Origin: Anaerolineae bacterium
GTDB lineage: Bacteria; Chloroflexota; Anaerolineae; UBA4142; SHND01
Assembly: GCA_022072245.1 (NCBI GenBank)
Contig: JAJVIA010000018.1
Coordinates: 1-52,754, forward strand
DNA length: 52,754 bases
Direction: 5' to 3'
Shown here: in pieces, positions 28,816-40,086 of the stretch
How positions within the stretch are numbered: position 1 is the stretch's first letter
Layout: every line of letters starts with the position of its first letter
Made by a program: the position numbers and the translations under genes
The notes under the pieces: model-generated
Databases searched by the model: none
The model's input: the letters and a program-made list of their open reading frames with translations, nothing else
Told to the model about the DNA's origin: nothing

Positions 28816-28888
28816 TGCCCCTAACGGGATTCGAACCCGTGTCTTGGCCTTGAAAGGGCCACGTCCTAGTCCACTAGACGATAGGGAC
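28816..28888 (-). tRNA. tRNA-Glu (anticodon TTC)
   Basis: A 73-base cloverleaf on the minus strand. Acceptor strands are GTCCCTA and TAGGGGC with discriminator A, the anticodon loop is CTTTCAA (anticodon TTC), and the T loop is GGTTCGAATCC. CCA is not encoded. The D arm carries TCGTCTAGTGGACTAGGAC, typical of tRNA-Glu. Confidence 0.95.
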
Positions 28889-35814: not shown

Positions 35815-36061
35815 ATTTGCCCTTGAAGCGGAATCTCGCGCGTTATTTTATCATGGCGCATCGCGTAAAACAAGCTCTTTTTCGTGTTTTTTCCTTGCTT
35901 TGCGTTAGTTTTGTCACAAAAATCAAATTCTTTCATTTTGATTACAAATCCCGCGCGCGGCGCGCCAAACCTCTTGTCAAGCATAAATCTTTGTGATAGA
36001 GTAGGCATAGGAAATAGGTACTATTGCGCTTTAACAATTCTCGTCTGTTTTAGATTGTTTA
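35815..36061. other. Intergenic region between the H1-like gene and the riboswitches
   Basis: A divergent gap, A/T-richer than its surroundings. Apart from the promoter-like pair at 35974-36002 I see no ORF or RNA gene in it. Confidence 0.5.
35974..36002 (+). promoter_or_regulatory. Candidate promoter for the riboswitch-adhesin transcript
   Basis: TTGTCA and TAGAGT are separated by exactly 17 bases, a good sigma-70-type spacing with a close -35 match. Transcription would start near 36009, about 50 bases before the first aptamer. Assigned by eye only. Confidence 0.5.
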
Positions 36062-36148
36062 ACGGATGCGATGAACTCGGGTCTTGTTGCGAAGGATGCA
36101 GCGAGATGGACGCCCGGACCCGAGGGAGCAAGTGGCGTAACCGGCCGT
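36062..36148 (+). promoter_or_regulatory. Cyclic-di-GMP-II riboswitch aptamer, copy 1
   Basis: The fold matches the c-di-GMP-II class. P1 is ACGG (36062-36065)/CCGT (36145-36148), then GATGAA, P2 CTCGGGTC (36076-36083)/GACCCGAG (36117-36124), and an inner stem CTTGTTGC/GCAGCGAG (36083-36105). The pseudoknot pairing is ACGCC (36110-36114)/GGCGT (36134-36138). The 3' consensus GAGC-AAGTGGCGTAACCGGCCG corresponds to the GAGTTAGTAGTGCAACCGACCG tail of the known clostridial class. A terminator follows within ten bases. Confidence 0.85.
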
Positions 36149-36155
36149 ATCAAGT

Positions 36156-36187
36156 CGCTTCAAGCGCTTGAAGCGGTCTTTTTTTTT
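36156..36187 (+). terminator. Intrinsic terminator of riboswitch 1
   Basis: CGCTTCAAGCGCTTGAAGCG (36156-36175) is a perfect palindrome, followed by GTC and nine T. It lies seven bases after P1 of aptamer 1. An alternative pairing of CCG...CAAG (aptamer end) with CTTG...CGG could link folding of the two, but direct overlap is less clear than in copy 2. Confidence 0.85.
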
Positions 36188-36208
36188 GAAACGGCGAGAC
36201 GTTTTTTT

Positions 36209-36319
36209 GACGGGGGCTGTGAAACCCTGCTTTGTCGCGGTATTGTTTTGCCGACAAGATGGACGCTCATTGCATAGGATGCAAAGAGCAGGGTGGAGCC
36301 GGTAGCGTAACCGACCGTT
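36209..36319 (+). promoter_or_regulatory. Cyclic-di-GMP-II riboswitch aptamer, copy 2
   Basis: Same architecture with different, covarying stems. P1 is GACGG (36209-36213)/CCGTT (36315-36319), P2 CCCTGCT (36225-36231)/AGCAGGG (36287-36293), inner stem TTGTCG/CGACAA (36232-36257). The pseudoknot is ACGCT (36263-36267)/AGCGT (36304-36308). The 3' consensus is GGTAGCGTAACCGACCG. An extra hairpin (TTGCA/TGCAA, 36270-36284) is inserted before the P2 3' strand. Confidence 0.88.
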
Positions 36320-36347
36320 CGCGAATTATTCGTGAACGGTTTTTTTT
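36314..36347 (+). terminator. Intrinsic terminator of riboswitch 2
   Basis: ACCGTTCGCGAA (36314-36325) pairs with TTCGTGAACGGT (36329-36340), twelve pairs with one G-U, loop TTA, then a run of T. Its left arm shares 36315-36319 with the P1 3' strand of aptamer 2, so ligand-stabilised P1 and the terminator are mutually exclusive. This predicts an ON switch. Confidence 0.88.
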
Positions 36348-36376
36348 ATGGGTTTTTATCCAAGGAGGATAAAGAA

Positions 36377-37555
36377 ATGAAATGGTTCAGAAAAATTTCG
36401 GTCAACGCGCTGCGCGTCGGTTTGATGCTCATTGCCGTTGCGGCGTTGGGAAGCGTGTTAGTTTCTACCGCATCGGCTGATTTGGCGCCATGCGCTTCGG
36501 CAACCGGCGGGATTTCGGGAACGGGCCCAGGCCAATCCATCAATGGGACGATTGGCGCGACAAACTATAGCTTGTGGGCGGGCGTTATTTATTTGGACTT
36601 GACCGGGACGCCGAACGATATTCAGGCATTCTGTATTGACATGACGCATCACGCCGGCGTCGGCGATTGCTTTAACACGGGCGCGGCTTTGACGGGCAGT
36701 CTAGCCAAGGCGATTTATTATTATCCGCCCGATAAAACTTTGTCGAATGATGAAAACGCGGCGCGGCAAGCTGCCGTGTGGCATTACTCGGACGGCTTTG
36801 CGCCGACGAGTCCGCAGGCCGTAGTGGATCGTTACAATGCCATTGTGTCGGACATTGATGCGAAACCTGCGCCGCCGTCCGCGCATCCGCCCGTTATGAC
36901 AGTGAACCCCTTGACTGCGGAACACAAGCCCGGCGAATCGCAGACCTTTACTTTGACGGTTAAGAAAGATAGCTTGCCTGTCGTCGGGCAGGTCATCAAT
37001 TTGAGCTTGACGGGCGTTGGTTCGCTCAGCGCGCCGAGCGTCACAACCGATGCGAATGGTCAAGCAACGTTTAGCGTCACGAGCAGCGTTGAGGGCGCTT
37101 CGGTTGTAAACGCGAATTTTTCCTACAGCTTGCCTATCGGCACGCAGTTTGACCCGGTGACAGCCGGTAAACAGAAATTGGTTTTGGGCGAGACCGCTAC
37201 CGGCAATGTAAATGTTGACCCAATGGTTACTTGGCGCACGCCAAACGCCGTTACGCTAGCTGCGTTCCATCTTCGGGCAAAAGGCAAACGGGTCGAATTG
37301 CAATGGGAGACCGGAACCGAATTGCAGATGCTGGGTTTCAACGTTTGGCGCAAGACCGGCAAAAACGCGTGGAAAAAAATCAACGCGGATTTGATTACGG
37401 CGACGAACGCGGGTATGGCTGCGGGCGCCCAATACAAGTTTAGCGACAAAGCGGTCAAGACGGGCAAAAAATATTCTTATAAAATCGAAATGGTCGGCGT
37501 GAATCAAGTATCGGAATGGTCGGCGGTGCAATCCATCAAACTGCCGGCTAAATAG
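36377..37555 (+). CDS. Secreted thioester-domain (TED) adhesin-like protein
   Basis: 392 residues. A Sec signal peptide (about 1-34, ending STASA) is followed by a TED domain: Cys86 in QAFCIDM and Gln131 in RQAAVWHYSDG are the residues that form the internal Cys-Gln thioester in Gram-positive adhesins. Residues about 160-270 form a Big_1-like Ig domain (TLTVKKDSLPVVGQVINLSL, DANGQATFSV). Residues about 295-392 are FnIII-like (VELQWETGTELQMLGFNVW). No LPxTG motif or C-terminal helix is seen. AAGGAGG lies eight bases before the ATG, just after the second riboswitch. Confidence 0.85.
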   Translation: MKWFRKISVNALRVGLMLIAVAALGSVLVSTASADLAPCASATGGISGTGPGQSINGTIGATNYSLWAGVIYLDLTGTPNDIQAFCIDMTHHAGVGDCFNTGAALTGSLAKAIYYYPPDKTLSNDENAARQAAVWHYSDGFAPTSPQAVVDRYNAIVSDIDAKPAPPSAHPPVMTVNPLTAEHKPGESQTFTLTVKKDSLPVVGQVINLSLTGVGSLSAPSVTTDANGQATFSVTSSVEGASVVNANFSYSLPIGTQFDPVTAGKQKLVLGETATGNVNVDPMVTWRTPNAVTLAAFHLRAKGKRVELQWETGTELQMLGFNVWRKTGKNAWKKINADLITATNAGMAAGAQYKFSDKAVKTGKKYSYKIEMVGVNQVSEWSAVQSIKLPAK

Positions 37556-37672: not shown

Positions 37673-37710
37673 AATACGCGCAAGGCGCAAGCTTTGCGCG
37701 TATTTTTTTT
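37673..37710 (+). terminator. Intrinsic terminator before paaA
   Basis: AATACGCGCAA (37673-37683) and TTGCGCGTATT (37694-37704) form an 11-pair stem, followed by a run of T. It ends the adhesin transcript, or attenuates the paa operon together with the structured element before it. Confidence 0.85.
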
Positions 37711-37788
37711 CGACCTGAATCCCGCGCGCCGCAATTGACGCGCGCGCACGATTGGATGTATTCTATGTTGGCGACGATGGAGGTTCAA

Positions 37789-38718
37789 ATGACAGAGACA
37801 GAACAATTACAAGCGTTTGAAGCGCGCATTGCGCGCGGAGAAAAAATTGAACCGGGCGATTGGATGCCCGATGCGTATCGCCAGCAATTGATTCGGATGA
37901 TTTCGCAGCACGCGCACAGCGAGATTATCGGGATGCTGCCCGAAGGCGTGTGGCTCCAGCGCGCGCCGACGCTGCGCCGTAAATTGGTTCTGCTTGCCAA
38001 AGTGCAGGACGAAGGCGGACACGGCCAATACTTGTATCACGCGGCGGAAACGCTCGGCGTGACGCGCGCGGAAATGATCGACGCGCTCTTGGCGGGCCGC
38101 GCCAAATACTCGTCCGTGTTTAATTATCCGACGCTGACCTGGGCGGATATTGGCATGATTGGCTGGCTCGTGGACGGCGCGGCGATTCAAAATCAAACCA
38201 TGCTCGCGCACTGTTCGTACGGCCCGTATGCGCGCGCGATGGTGCGGATTTGCGCCGAAGAAACGTTTCATAAAAAGCAGGGCATGGAGCAAATCATTCG
38301 CTATACGCGCGGCACGCCGCGCCAAAAACAGATGGCGCAAGACGCGTTGAATCGCTGGTGGTGGCCCTCGCTGATGATGTTTGGGCCTCACGACGCCACT
38401 TCGCCCAACAGCGCGCAATTGATTCGCTGGGGCATCAAAACCAAAACCAATGACGAACTGCGCCAAGATTTTGTCAATAAAATGGTTTCCGATTTTCACG
38501 CCGTCGGTTTGACGATTCCCGACCCGGATTTGTATTACGACGCGTCGAGCGGAAACTGGATTTCCGGCGAAATCAATTGGGATGAATTCTGGCGCGTCGT
38601 CAAGGGCGACGGACCCTGCAACGCGGAACGCTTGCAAGCGCGGCGTGAGGCGCAGGAAAATGGCGCGTGGGTGCGCGAGGCATTGGCGGCATACGCTGCG
38701 GCAAGGGGCGAAGGTTGA
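37789..38718 (+). CDS. paaA: 1,2-Phenylacetyl-CoA epoxidase, catalytic subunit PaaA
   Basis: PaaA is the di-iron subunit that epoxidises the ring of phenylacetyl-CoA. The two iron-binding helix motifs are [20 protein letters not shown] and [22 protein letters not shown]-like [19 protein letters not shown] is also typical. 309 residues, starting at [18 protein letters not shown], where GGAGG lies upstream. paaB follows after three bases. The window has paaABCD but no paaE reductase and no paaK ligase. Confidence 0.95.
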
Positions 38719-38721
38719 ACG

Positions 38722-39297
38722 ATGAACGATTCACAATGGGCGCGGTACGAAGTGTTTGAGCAAGAACGCGCGGGCGCGCCGCATCGCAACGCCGGTTCGG
38801 TGCACGCGTCCGATGCGGAAATGGCGCTGGGTAACGCGCGCGACGTGTTTGTGCGGCGGCCCAATTGTTTCAGTTTGTGGGTGGTCCCGGAAGCGGCTGT
38901 TTTCGCCAAGACGGCGCAAGAGGTGGCGCGCGACGATTGGTACGCGGCGCCAGCCGCCGACGCGCCGCGCGAAACGTATCTGGTCTTTAGCAAAAAGGGC
39001 CAGCCCGCGCGCGAAACGTTTGTCGAATATGTGGGCGAGGTGCAAGCGGCGACGCCCGCGCACGCGCTGCGCGTAGCGTTGGAAACGTTTCCCCCTCAAG
39101 ATGTCTTTGTATGGTGGGTTGCGCCGGAACGGCGCGTGTTGAAAAGCGAACAGGCGGACGCCGCGAGCATGTTTGCGCCGGCGCGCGCTAAAAAATATCG
39201 CATGCACACCTTTTATCCGGTCGAACCGATTATGCGCGAATTGAAATCCGCGCAAGGCATGTTGGATAATTCAGAAAAAACGACGGACAATGATTAA
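38722..39297 (+). CDS. paaB: Phenylacetyl-CoA epoxidase subunit PaaB, internally duplicated
   Basis: PaaB bridges PaaA-PaaC dimers and is normally about 95 residues. This one has 191. The first half (residues about 7-65) has YEVFEQERAGAPHRNAGSVH and ARDVFVRRPNCFSLWVV. The second half (about 84-145) repeats the plan with YLVFSKKGQPARETFVEYVG, then FPPQDVFVWWVAPE. Both halves keep the hydrophobic core pattern but differ in sequence, so this is an old duplication or fusion. Confidence 0.88.
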   Translation: MNDSQWARYEVFEQERAGAPHRNAGSVHASDAEMALGNARDVFVRRPNCFSLWVVPEAAVFAKTAQEVARDDWYAAPAADAPRETYLVFSKKGQPARETFVEYVGEVQAATPAHALRVALETFPPQDVFVWWVAPERRVLKSEQADAASMFAPARAKKYRMHTFYPVEPIMRELKSAQGMLDNSEKTTDND

Positions 39298-39336
39298 GCC
39301 AGCCGCCGCGTTCTTGGCGGTTATAGATAACGCAAT

Positions 39337-40086
39337 ATGAATGACACACTTTTGGCGCGAAACGTTCTGGCGCTCGCGGACGATTCCCTGCTGCTCGGTC
39401 ATCGCAATTCCGAATGGGCGGGCCACGCGCCGATTCTCGAAGAAGACATTGCTTTTGCCAATCTCGCGCTCGACGAATTGGGCCACGCGCAATTGTGGTA
39501 CGAGCTGCATCAAGAACTGACCGGCCGCGAACCGGACGAAACGATTTTCTTTCGCGACGCGGCGGATTACTTGAATGTCCAGTTGGTCGAATTGCCCAAA
39601 GGCGATTGGGCGTTTTCGATGCTGCGACAGTATTTGTTTGACGCGTATGAAAACGTTTTGCTCGCGCATTTGGTCAATAGTTCCAACGCGCGCGTCGCGG
39701 AAATTGCCGCCAAGCAGCGCCCCGAAGAGATGTATCATTTGCGTCATACGTCGAATTGGGTGAAACGATTGGGTTTGGGCGCCGCCGAAAGTCATCGCCG
39801 CATGACGGCTGCGCTGAATGAATTATGGGCGTACGCGCTGCAATTGTTTGCGCCGTTGGAAAACGCGCAAGCGCTGACGGACGCCAACATTTTGCCGGAC
39901 CCGCGCGCGCTGCAAACGGAATGGGAAAATCAAGTGGGCGCGCATTTGACGGCATCCGCTTTAGCCGTTCCCGCCGCGCGCGCGCCGCGCGCAAAATCGC
40001 GTTCAGAGCATACCGCGCATTTGCGCGAACTATTGACCGAGATGCAAGAGGTGGCGCGCAGCGAAGTATATGGAGTGGAATGGTAA
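39337..40086 (+). CDS. paaC: Phenylacetyl-CoA epoxidase subunit PaaC
   Basis: PaaC is the structural partner of PaaA, with a ferritin-like fold. LGHRNSEWAGHAPILEEDIA, LALDELGHAQLWYELHQELTG and RPEEMYHLRHTSNWVKRLG are recognisable (each taken separately from the first half). 249 residues, the normal size. Its end overlaps paaD by seven bases. Confidence 0.94.
   Translation: MNDTLLARNVLALADDSLLLGHRNSEWAGHAPILEEDIAFANLALDELGHAQLWYELHQELTGREPDETIFFRDAADYLNVQLVELPKGDWAFSMLRQYLFDAYENVLLAHLVNSSNARVAEIAAKQRPEEMYHLRHTSNWVKRLGLGAAESHRRMTAALNELWAYALQLFAPLENAQALTDANILPDPRALQTEWENQVGAHLTASALAVPAARAPRAKSRSEHTAHLRELLTEMQEVARSEVYGVEW

Follow-up and report, generated by a model that had tools for sequence, protein, structure and literature searches.

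Tandem riboswitches have been surveyed across many phyla, Chloroflexota included, and riboswitches for cyclic di-GMP (c-di-GMP), tandem ones among them, are reported to be enriched in Thermodesulfobacteriota and Deinococcota (PMC12452182). For the class-II c-di-GMP riboswitch (c-di-GMP-II), 59 doublets and nine triplets have been described, mostly in Paraclostridium and its close relatives and located before surface-anchor genes; the bi-mechanism systems that we found in the same report are pairs of SAM-class riboswitches, and its authors state that not all tandems were checked for a double mechanism (PMC9481103). A triple class-I array in Bacillus was measured to give lower background and a tighter, more digital response (PMC4759541). 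In C. difficile, the class-II switches are reported to work as transcriptional ON switches, apart from one translational exception, and one ON switch of this class controls CD3246, a thioester-domain protein, so this kind of target is already known (PMC11477304). Here, we describe a locus in a 52,754-nucleotide stretch of DNA (the window) from a Chloroflexota bacterium known from metagenomes. We think it likely that two complete class-II c-di-GMP riboswitches in tandem gate transcription into a thioester-domain surface-protein gene at this locus. Both the elements and their arrangement are of kinds already known, and the locus is an additional case in Chloroflexota.

The two aptamers lie on the forward strand of an intergenic region (35815–36376) flanked by a leftward 528-residue open reading frame and a rightward gene. 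We ran cmsearch with Rfam model RF01786, as the sequence-only reading of this DNA had proposed. Its class-II assignment of both RNAs stands: copy 1 (36055–36153) scored 49.6 bits (E = 9.3e-10) and copy 2 (36203–36325) scored 42.3 bits (E = 1.1e-7), both significant although below the RF01786 gathering score of 53.5 bits. When Rfam gathering thresholds are applied, copy 1 alone is reported, and under a different family, RF03169 (c-di-GMP-II-GAG; 50.8 bits, cut-off 40). A covariance model made from our own alignment of relatives (R1, see below) gave 84.0 bits for copy 1 and 68.9 bits for copy 2, scores to be read with the fact that both window copies belong to that alignment. The tandem architecture is as first read, and the matched stretches are separated by 49 bases. 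We found no third RF01786 match at E ≤ 0.001 in the 3.99 Mb, approximately 80% complete assembly, for which 150 of 269 first-look candidates were scored. A chance match for the aptamers is ruled out by the RF01786 E-values, the assembly-wide search and the covariation described next. Upstream, a candidate sigma-70-like promoter (TTGTCA-17-TAGAGT, with TG ahead of the second hexamer; 35974–36002, forward strand) matches by consensus only, and four such promoter-like sites were found in the 2.2 kb scanned against 1.7 expected.

Next, we aligned 40 copies (the two from the window and 38 from relatives, chosen from 56 candidates) with MAFFT, blind to structure. The R1 model was built from this alignment with a short calibration, so its E-values are rough. 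Across P1, P2, P3 and the pseudoknot, 93.4% of cells are paired, and 15 of the 21 base pairs show changes on both sides. None of 500 shuffles reached the observed covariation on any of five measures. Because kin sequences may beat such shuffles even without structure, a slid control is important here; when the 3′ partners were shifted by one to three columns, pairing fell to only 28–38%. In copy 1, the P1 5′ strand ACGG (36062–36065) pairs with CCGT (36145–36148; alignment columns 8–11 with 130–133), and the pseudoknot joins ACGCC (36110–36114) to GGCGT (36134–36138). In copy 2, ACGG (36210–36213) pairs with CCGT (36315–36318), and ACGCT (36263–36267) forms the pseudoknot with AGCGT (36304–36308). 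Pairing reaches 98.5% of cells in the pseudoknot (helix 4 of the alignment), where the last pair is C-G, U-A, G-C or U-G. All stems had been said to covary between the two window copies. This holds along the length of the inner stem, for one pair of P2 and for the last pair of the pseudoknot; P1 has an identical core (ACGG/CCGU) in both copies and does not contribute. The class-defining 3′ stretch is conserved as first noted, with AACCG in both window copies and in 40 of 40 rows; from the crystal structure, we take this stretch to carry ligand contacts. Copy 2 also contains an accessory hairpin (36268–36286), seen in the alignment and in the fold. The second copies of two sister species (G003 and G001) carry an insertion at the same site that is also able to pair, with changed letters.

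Each copy is followed by its own terminator with a T-tract, as had been read from the sequence. The copy 1 terminator (36143–36187) has a long register at 36143–36178 followed by a T-tract at 36179–36187, with a folding energy of −20.8 kcal/mol (z = −4.9). The copy 2 terminator (36313–36347) has a 13-pair stem at 36313–36341 and then its T-tract (−18.5 kcal/mol, z = −4.2). In both, the 5′ arm is the 3′ strand of P1. The ON prediction that had been drawn from this overlap in copy 2 fits cleanly, and the overlap is also present in the longer register of copy 1. An unguided terminator scan of the region gave six sites against 4.4 expected, hence no overall enrichment, and the two riboswitch terminators have the longest stems among them. 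Enforcing P1 in copy 2 raises the energy from −52.7 to −43.9 kcal/mol (a cost of 8.8), and the remaining seven-pair hairpin stops four bases before the T-tract. With P1 enforced in copy 1 (−41.8 versus −48.2 kcal/mol), the region stays paired up to the T-tract. The platform is thus cleanly coupled to P1 in copy 2, and in copy 1 it is coupled through the long register only, with a competing hairpin that is independent of P1.

The same arrangement recurs among relatives. Of 105 related copies, 77 have a hairpin with a T-tail that begins in the P1 3′ region; 40 sets in which the downstream sequence was shuffled gave a mean of 10.6 (standard deviation 2.8, maximum 16). A slightly laxer limit on hairpin length raises the count to 79 of 105. 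Under the rules of our script, 28 of the 105 have no overlapping terminator. Some of these have shorter hairpins beyond the length limit, and others may act on translation. Since most related copies have a terminator that uses the P1 3′ strand, ligand-ON transcription switches are predicted.

The competing hairpin of copy 1 (36154–36177) has ten pairs without P1 and ends one base before nine Ts, so copy 1 may terminate even when bound and may shift from strong to moderate termination instead of from off to on. In an extended form of this idea, copy 2 would be the only working switch and copy 1, binding or defunct, a fixed attenuator that lowers the expression ceiling and terminates many transcripts in both states. 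Hairpins that are independent of P1 and share the T-tract of the overlapping terminator occur in 12 of the 105 copies, and that of window copy 1 is the longest and the sole ten-pair case; the inner stems of the first copies in G001 and G003, read from their sequences, stop several bases short of the T-tract. However, the inner hairpin taken alone (−10.7 kcal/mol) is unremarkable against shuffles (z only −1.7), and the P1-using long register has the lower energy, at −20.8 kcal/mol, so ligand should still shift the balance. Copy 1 also keeps the invariant and near-invariant positions of the alignment and outscores copy 2. We therefore regard a fixed attenuator as rather unlikely, though it is the alternative that we take most seriously. 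We give hardly any credence to the switches being of the OFF type or mainly translational. Part of the gene's Shine-Dalgarno sequence (AGGAGG, 36363–36368) does lie in the loop of a predicted hairpin (36353–36375), and the second copies of G003 and G004 have the look of translational switches. In both window copies, however, a terminator recruits the P1 strand as its 5′ arm, so that this terminator and the aptamer are mutually exclusive, and class-II switches in C. difficile have been described as ON (PMC11477304).

We next considered the ligand. The GAG variant group is named for the letters G-A-G at three positions, where the standard class has G-C-A. The 3′ tails of the two window copies read GGCGUAACCG and AGCGUAACCG, that of the RF01786 consensus and of L003, a standard-type relative from the same class, reads GGUGCAACCG, and the GAG-type relatives read GGUGAGACCG. 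If copy 1 or both copies belonged to the GAG group, they would sense something other than c-di-GMP. Copy 1 does pass the RF03169 cut-off at 50.8 bits, and GAG-type tails are found in relatives of the same order (L034, L033, L012 and L011). However, both window copies read G-U-A at the naming positions, with the adenine retained, and on these letters we rejected the GAG identity of copy 1 despite its RF03169 listing. Furthermore, the differing U faces an A across the pseudoknot; this pair is A-U in 37 of the 40 clade rows, G-C in L003 and U-A in GAG types, so the change looks compensatory. GAG membership is therefore very improbable. The tail U is best seen, from the sequences compared, as a change of pseudoknot pair, and a novel ligand hinted at by the G-U-A tail was set aside because that base belongs to this covarying pair. 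The tail adenines and guanine, presumably ligand contacts, are kept in the window copies. Given the compensated U and these retained letters, c-di-GMP is the expected ligand of both copies. The source genome has eight GGDEF domains over the cut-off and a ninth below it, together with three HD_5 domains; no match for an EAL phosphodiesterase was found in it.

The gene downstream of the riboswitches (36377–37555, forward strand) encodes a 392-residue protein with a hydrophobic N-terminus, a thioester domain, a Big_1 Ig-like domain and a C-terminal FN3-like domain. The thioester domain named in the sequence-only reading is borne out by a PF08341 match of 28.4 bits (cut-off 22), with no other thioester-domain match in the source genome, and the product is predicted to be a surface protein that binds covalently. 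The Big_1 domain scores 34.8 bits, just below its cut-off of 34.9. Two orthologues score 24.0 bits (over the cut-off) and 17.4 bits (under it) with PF08341. Thioester domains have been described with the motif [YFL]C-hydrophobic-hydrophilic, and a C-terminal LPXTG anchor is almost always present in the Gram-positive set of that report (PMC4450167). The window protein has the cysteine motif FCID at residues 85–88, invariant in three orthologues. Several glutamines are likewise invariant, including Q257 and Q266, and the stretch RQxxVW is similar to the motif TQxx-hydrophobic-W. We saw no LPXTG anchor by eye in the 392-residue protein, whose C-terminus is the FN3-like domain. A structure model of the adhesin made with three sequences has a mean pLDDT of 62.7, with ten-residue blocks at 39–62 over residues 81–160, and is therefore too weak for placing the thioester glutamine. 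The only hits in a sequence search of solved structures with the adhesin were three intimin chains, which align to the Big_1 part; none was a thioester-domain structure. The terminator scan placed a terminator-like hairpin (37685–37699, forward strand) between the adhesin gene and paaA, which starts at 37735, and the riboswitches may therefore control the adhesin gene alone. Directly downstream, positions 37735–40086 hold paaA, paaB and paaC-like genes for phenylacetate degradation. Elsewhere in the window there is a tRNA gene (28816–28888, reverse strand, 63.5 bits).

We infer ligand, direction and action for both copies from computed features: the aptamers, their covariation, the terminators with their P1 overlap, and the conserved doublet with its target. 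In the absence of c-di-GMP, each aptamer would give up its P1 3′ strand to the terminator, and the polymerase would halt at the first site or, having passed it, at the second. With c-di-GMP bound, the pseudoknot and P1 would be held, the terminator would be deprived of its 5′ arm and transcription would continue. The two read-through probabilities would multiply, so that leak is squared and the response becomes moderately steeper. We calculate that placing two identical, independent switches in series shrinks the 10–90% range from 81-fold to about 40-fold, and the multiplication of leak is the larger effect. The locus had been called an AND-type gate. Since both copies are expected to sense the same ligand, a pseudo-cooperative series, in the term of PMC9481103, fits instead of a two-input AND gate. 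The locus has the make-up of a pseudo-cooperative tandem, namely two complete units that belong to one class, lie 49 bases apart and each carry a platform of their own.

We also looked at how widely such arrays occur. Records that match the tail pattern (78 stretches) are mainly metagenome assemblies of Chloroflexota/Anaerolineae; the remainder include Clostridia and other groups. Five of these stretches have no R1 match and three a weak one, and these eight are therefore probably chance. Under stricter filters, RF01786 matched in 24 of 60 relatives, eight over the cut-off. R1 matched in 19 of the 20 genomes searched from the order and, again with stricter filters, in 26 of 199 genomes sampled from the class. 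Counting matches less than 300 bases apart as an array, arrays make up 11 of the 79 units in the order (ten doublets and one triplet). Doublets account for 8 of the 18 units in the genus, one of them including a weak match of 28.3 bits, and all six genomes have at least one doublet. A double array had been thought unusual outside Firmicutes; this is not supported by the six genus genomes and the four triplets of G030, a genome of the same class, nor by the enrichment in Thermodesulfobacteriota and Deinococcota, tandems included (PMC12452182), or the doublets and triplets of the class that are already on record (PMC9481103). In the open-licence literature, supplements aside, we found no published description of c-di-GMP-II doublets in Chloroflexota; the tables of PMC12452182 may hold cases.

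Some of the relatives have other arrangements. The G030 triplets (L038, 475–833 and 2228–2588; L039, 519–871 and 2289–2650) are each followed by an open reading frame with a hydrophobic N-terminal stretch. In G024 (C23; L003, 1320–1583, reverse strand), a c-di-GMP-II aptamer precedes an RNA that weakly resembles c-di-GMP-I-GGC (34.9 bits, cut-off 59, E = 1.6e-4), with a terminator-like hairpin seen by eye after each RNA. This is a possible mixed-class tandem. G002 has a strong c-di-GMP-I-GGC riboswitch (L024, 234–318, reverse strand; 71.2 bits, cut-off 59) close to a c-di-GMP-II doublet that is encoded on the other strand.

The doublet and the thioester gene are kept in sister species G003 and G001, whose proteins are 63% and 65% identical to that of the window. 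In a tree of the copies, the first copies form one group (support 0.87) and the second copies another (0.99), the latter including two copies from G005. The riboswitch locus adjoins paaA in the window, in G003, in G005 and, at a contig end, in G001. Given the same doublet, gene and paaA neighbor and the grouping by position, the doublet predates these species. No thioester-domain match was found in G005, where a different gene follows the doublet, and from this comparison of sequences it seems that the control element stayed at this locus and the target changed.

The output of the second unit also appears to vary. No T-tailed terminator was found for the second copies of G003 (L026, 697–819) and G004 (L027, 772–875). 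Folding predicts pairing of the P1 3′ strand to the Shine-Dalgarno GG in G003 (z = −4.4) and to the start-codon region in G004 (z = −2.7). If these folds are right, the two doublets act on transcription first and then on translation. G003 and G004 would then be a natural c-di-GMP-II bi-mechanism gate; in the accessible part of PMC9481103, we found no c-di-GMP-II pair among the bi-mechanism systems. For a single copy in G001 (C23), no clear translational platform was readable (z = −1.0).

The C-terminal FN3-like domain of the window protein (37238–37552) has the motif W.TG.EL..GFNVWR. Across the six genomes of the genus we counted 56 occurrences of this domain, which may serve in anchoring or secretion. 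Nine riboswitch units in the genus precede genes for proteins that end in it, and a tenth in G005, backed by an open reading frame and a domain match, brings the count to 10 of 18 units, a count that is a description and no independent test, as the domain was picked from these same genes. Two further FN3-linked units are possible in G005, and one unit runs into a contig end. We hold, with about equal weight for and against, a joint proposal for this lineage. In it, c-di-GMP-II switches, often doublets or triplets, would be a main control layer of a set of secreted, adhesin-like proteins with the C-terminal FN3-like domain, and within the genus the output of the second unit would have been exchanged while its aptamer was kept: the window and G001 would have a terminator there, and in G003 and G004 the Shine-Dalgarno sequence or the start codon would be masked.

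The locus carries the link between c-di-GMP-II and surface proteins, and the stacking of switches, into Chloroflexota of groundwater, sediment and other environmental metagenomes, where attachment likely matters. Furthermore, the genus provides natural variants of one doublet, with related aptamers and differing outputs and target genes. These variants allow testing of what a second switch adds and how a platform is swapped while the sensor stays.

In general, the window RNAs are close to the RF01786 class. They share its core, P1, P2, P3, pseudoknot and 3′ AACCG, as well as an ON-type terminator that competes with P1 and a surface-protein target. They differ in the tail, which reads GCGUAACCG with an A-U pseudoknot pair where the RF01786 consensus and L003 read GUGCAACCG, in a longer P3 loop and extra hairpins, and in their Chloroflexota host. 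With the c-di-GMP-II-GAG variant (RF03169) they have in common that copy 1 passes the cut-off and that GAG types occur in the same order, but the window copies have G-U-A and no G-A-G. The C. difficile CD3246 system shares the riboswitch class, the predicted direction and the target domain (PMC11477304). However, CD3246 is a protein of a Firmicutes pathogen, reported to bind the host and cut from the surface by PPEP-1 (PMC11477304), whereas the window protein is from an environmental Chloroflexota bacterium, ends in an FN3-like domain and has two switches in series. The c-di-GMP-II doublets and triplets before COG4932 surface-anchor genes are likewise pseudo-cooperative, same-ligand series in front of a surface-protein gene, but are described mostly from Paraclostridium and close relatives and so from a different phylum (PMC9481103). 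Finally, the triple c-di-GMP-I array before cspABCDE in Bacillus thuringiensis also has an aptamer and a platform in each unit and is of the ON type; its class-I aptamer is non-homologous to class II, and it is the array for which more stringent, digital control was measured (PMC4759541).
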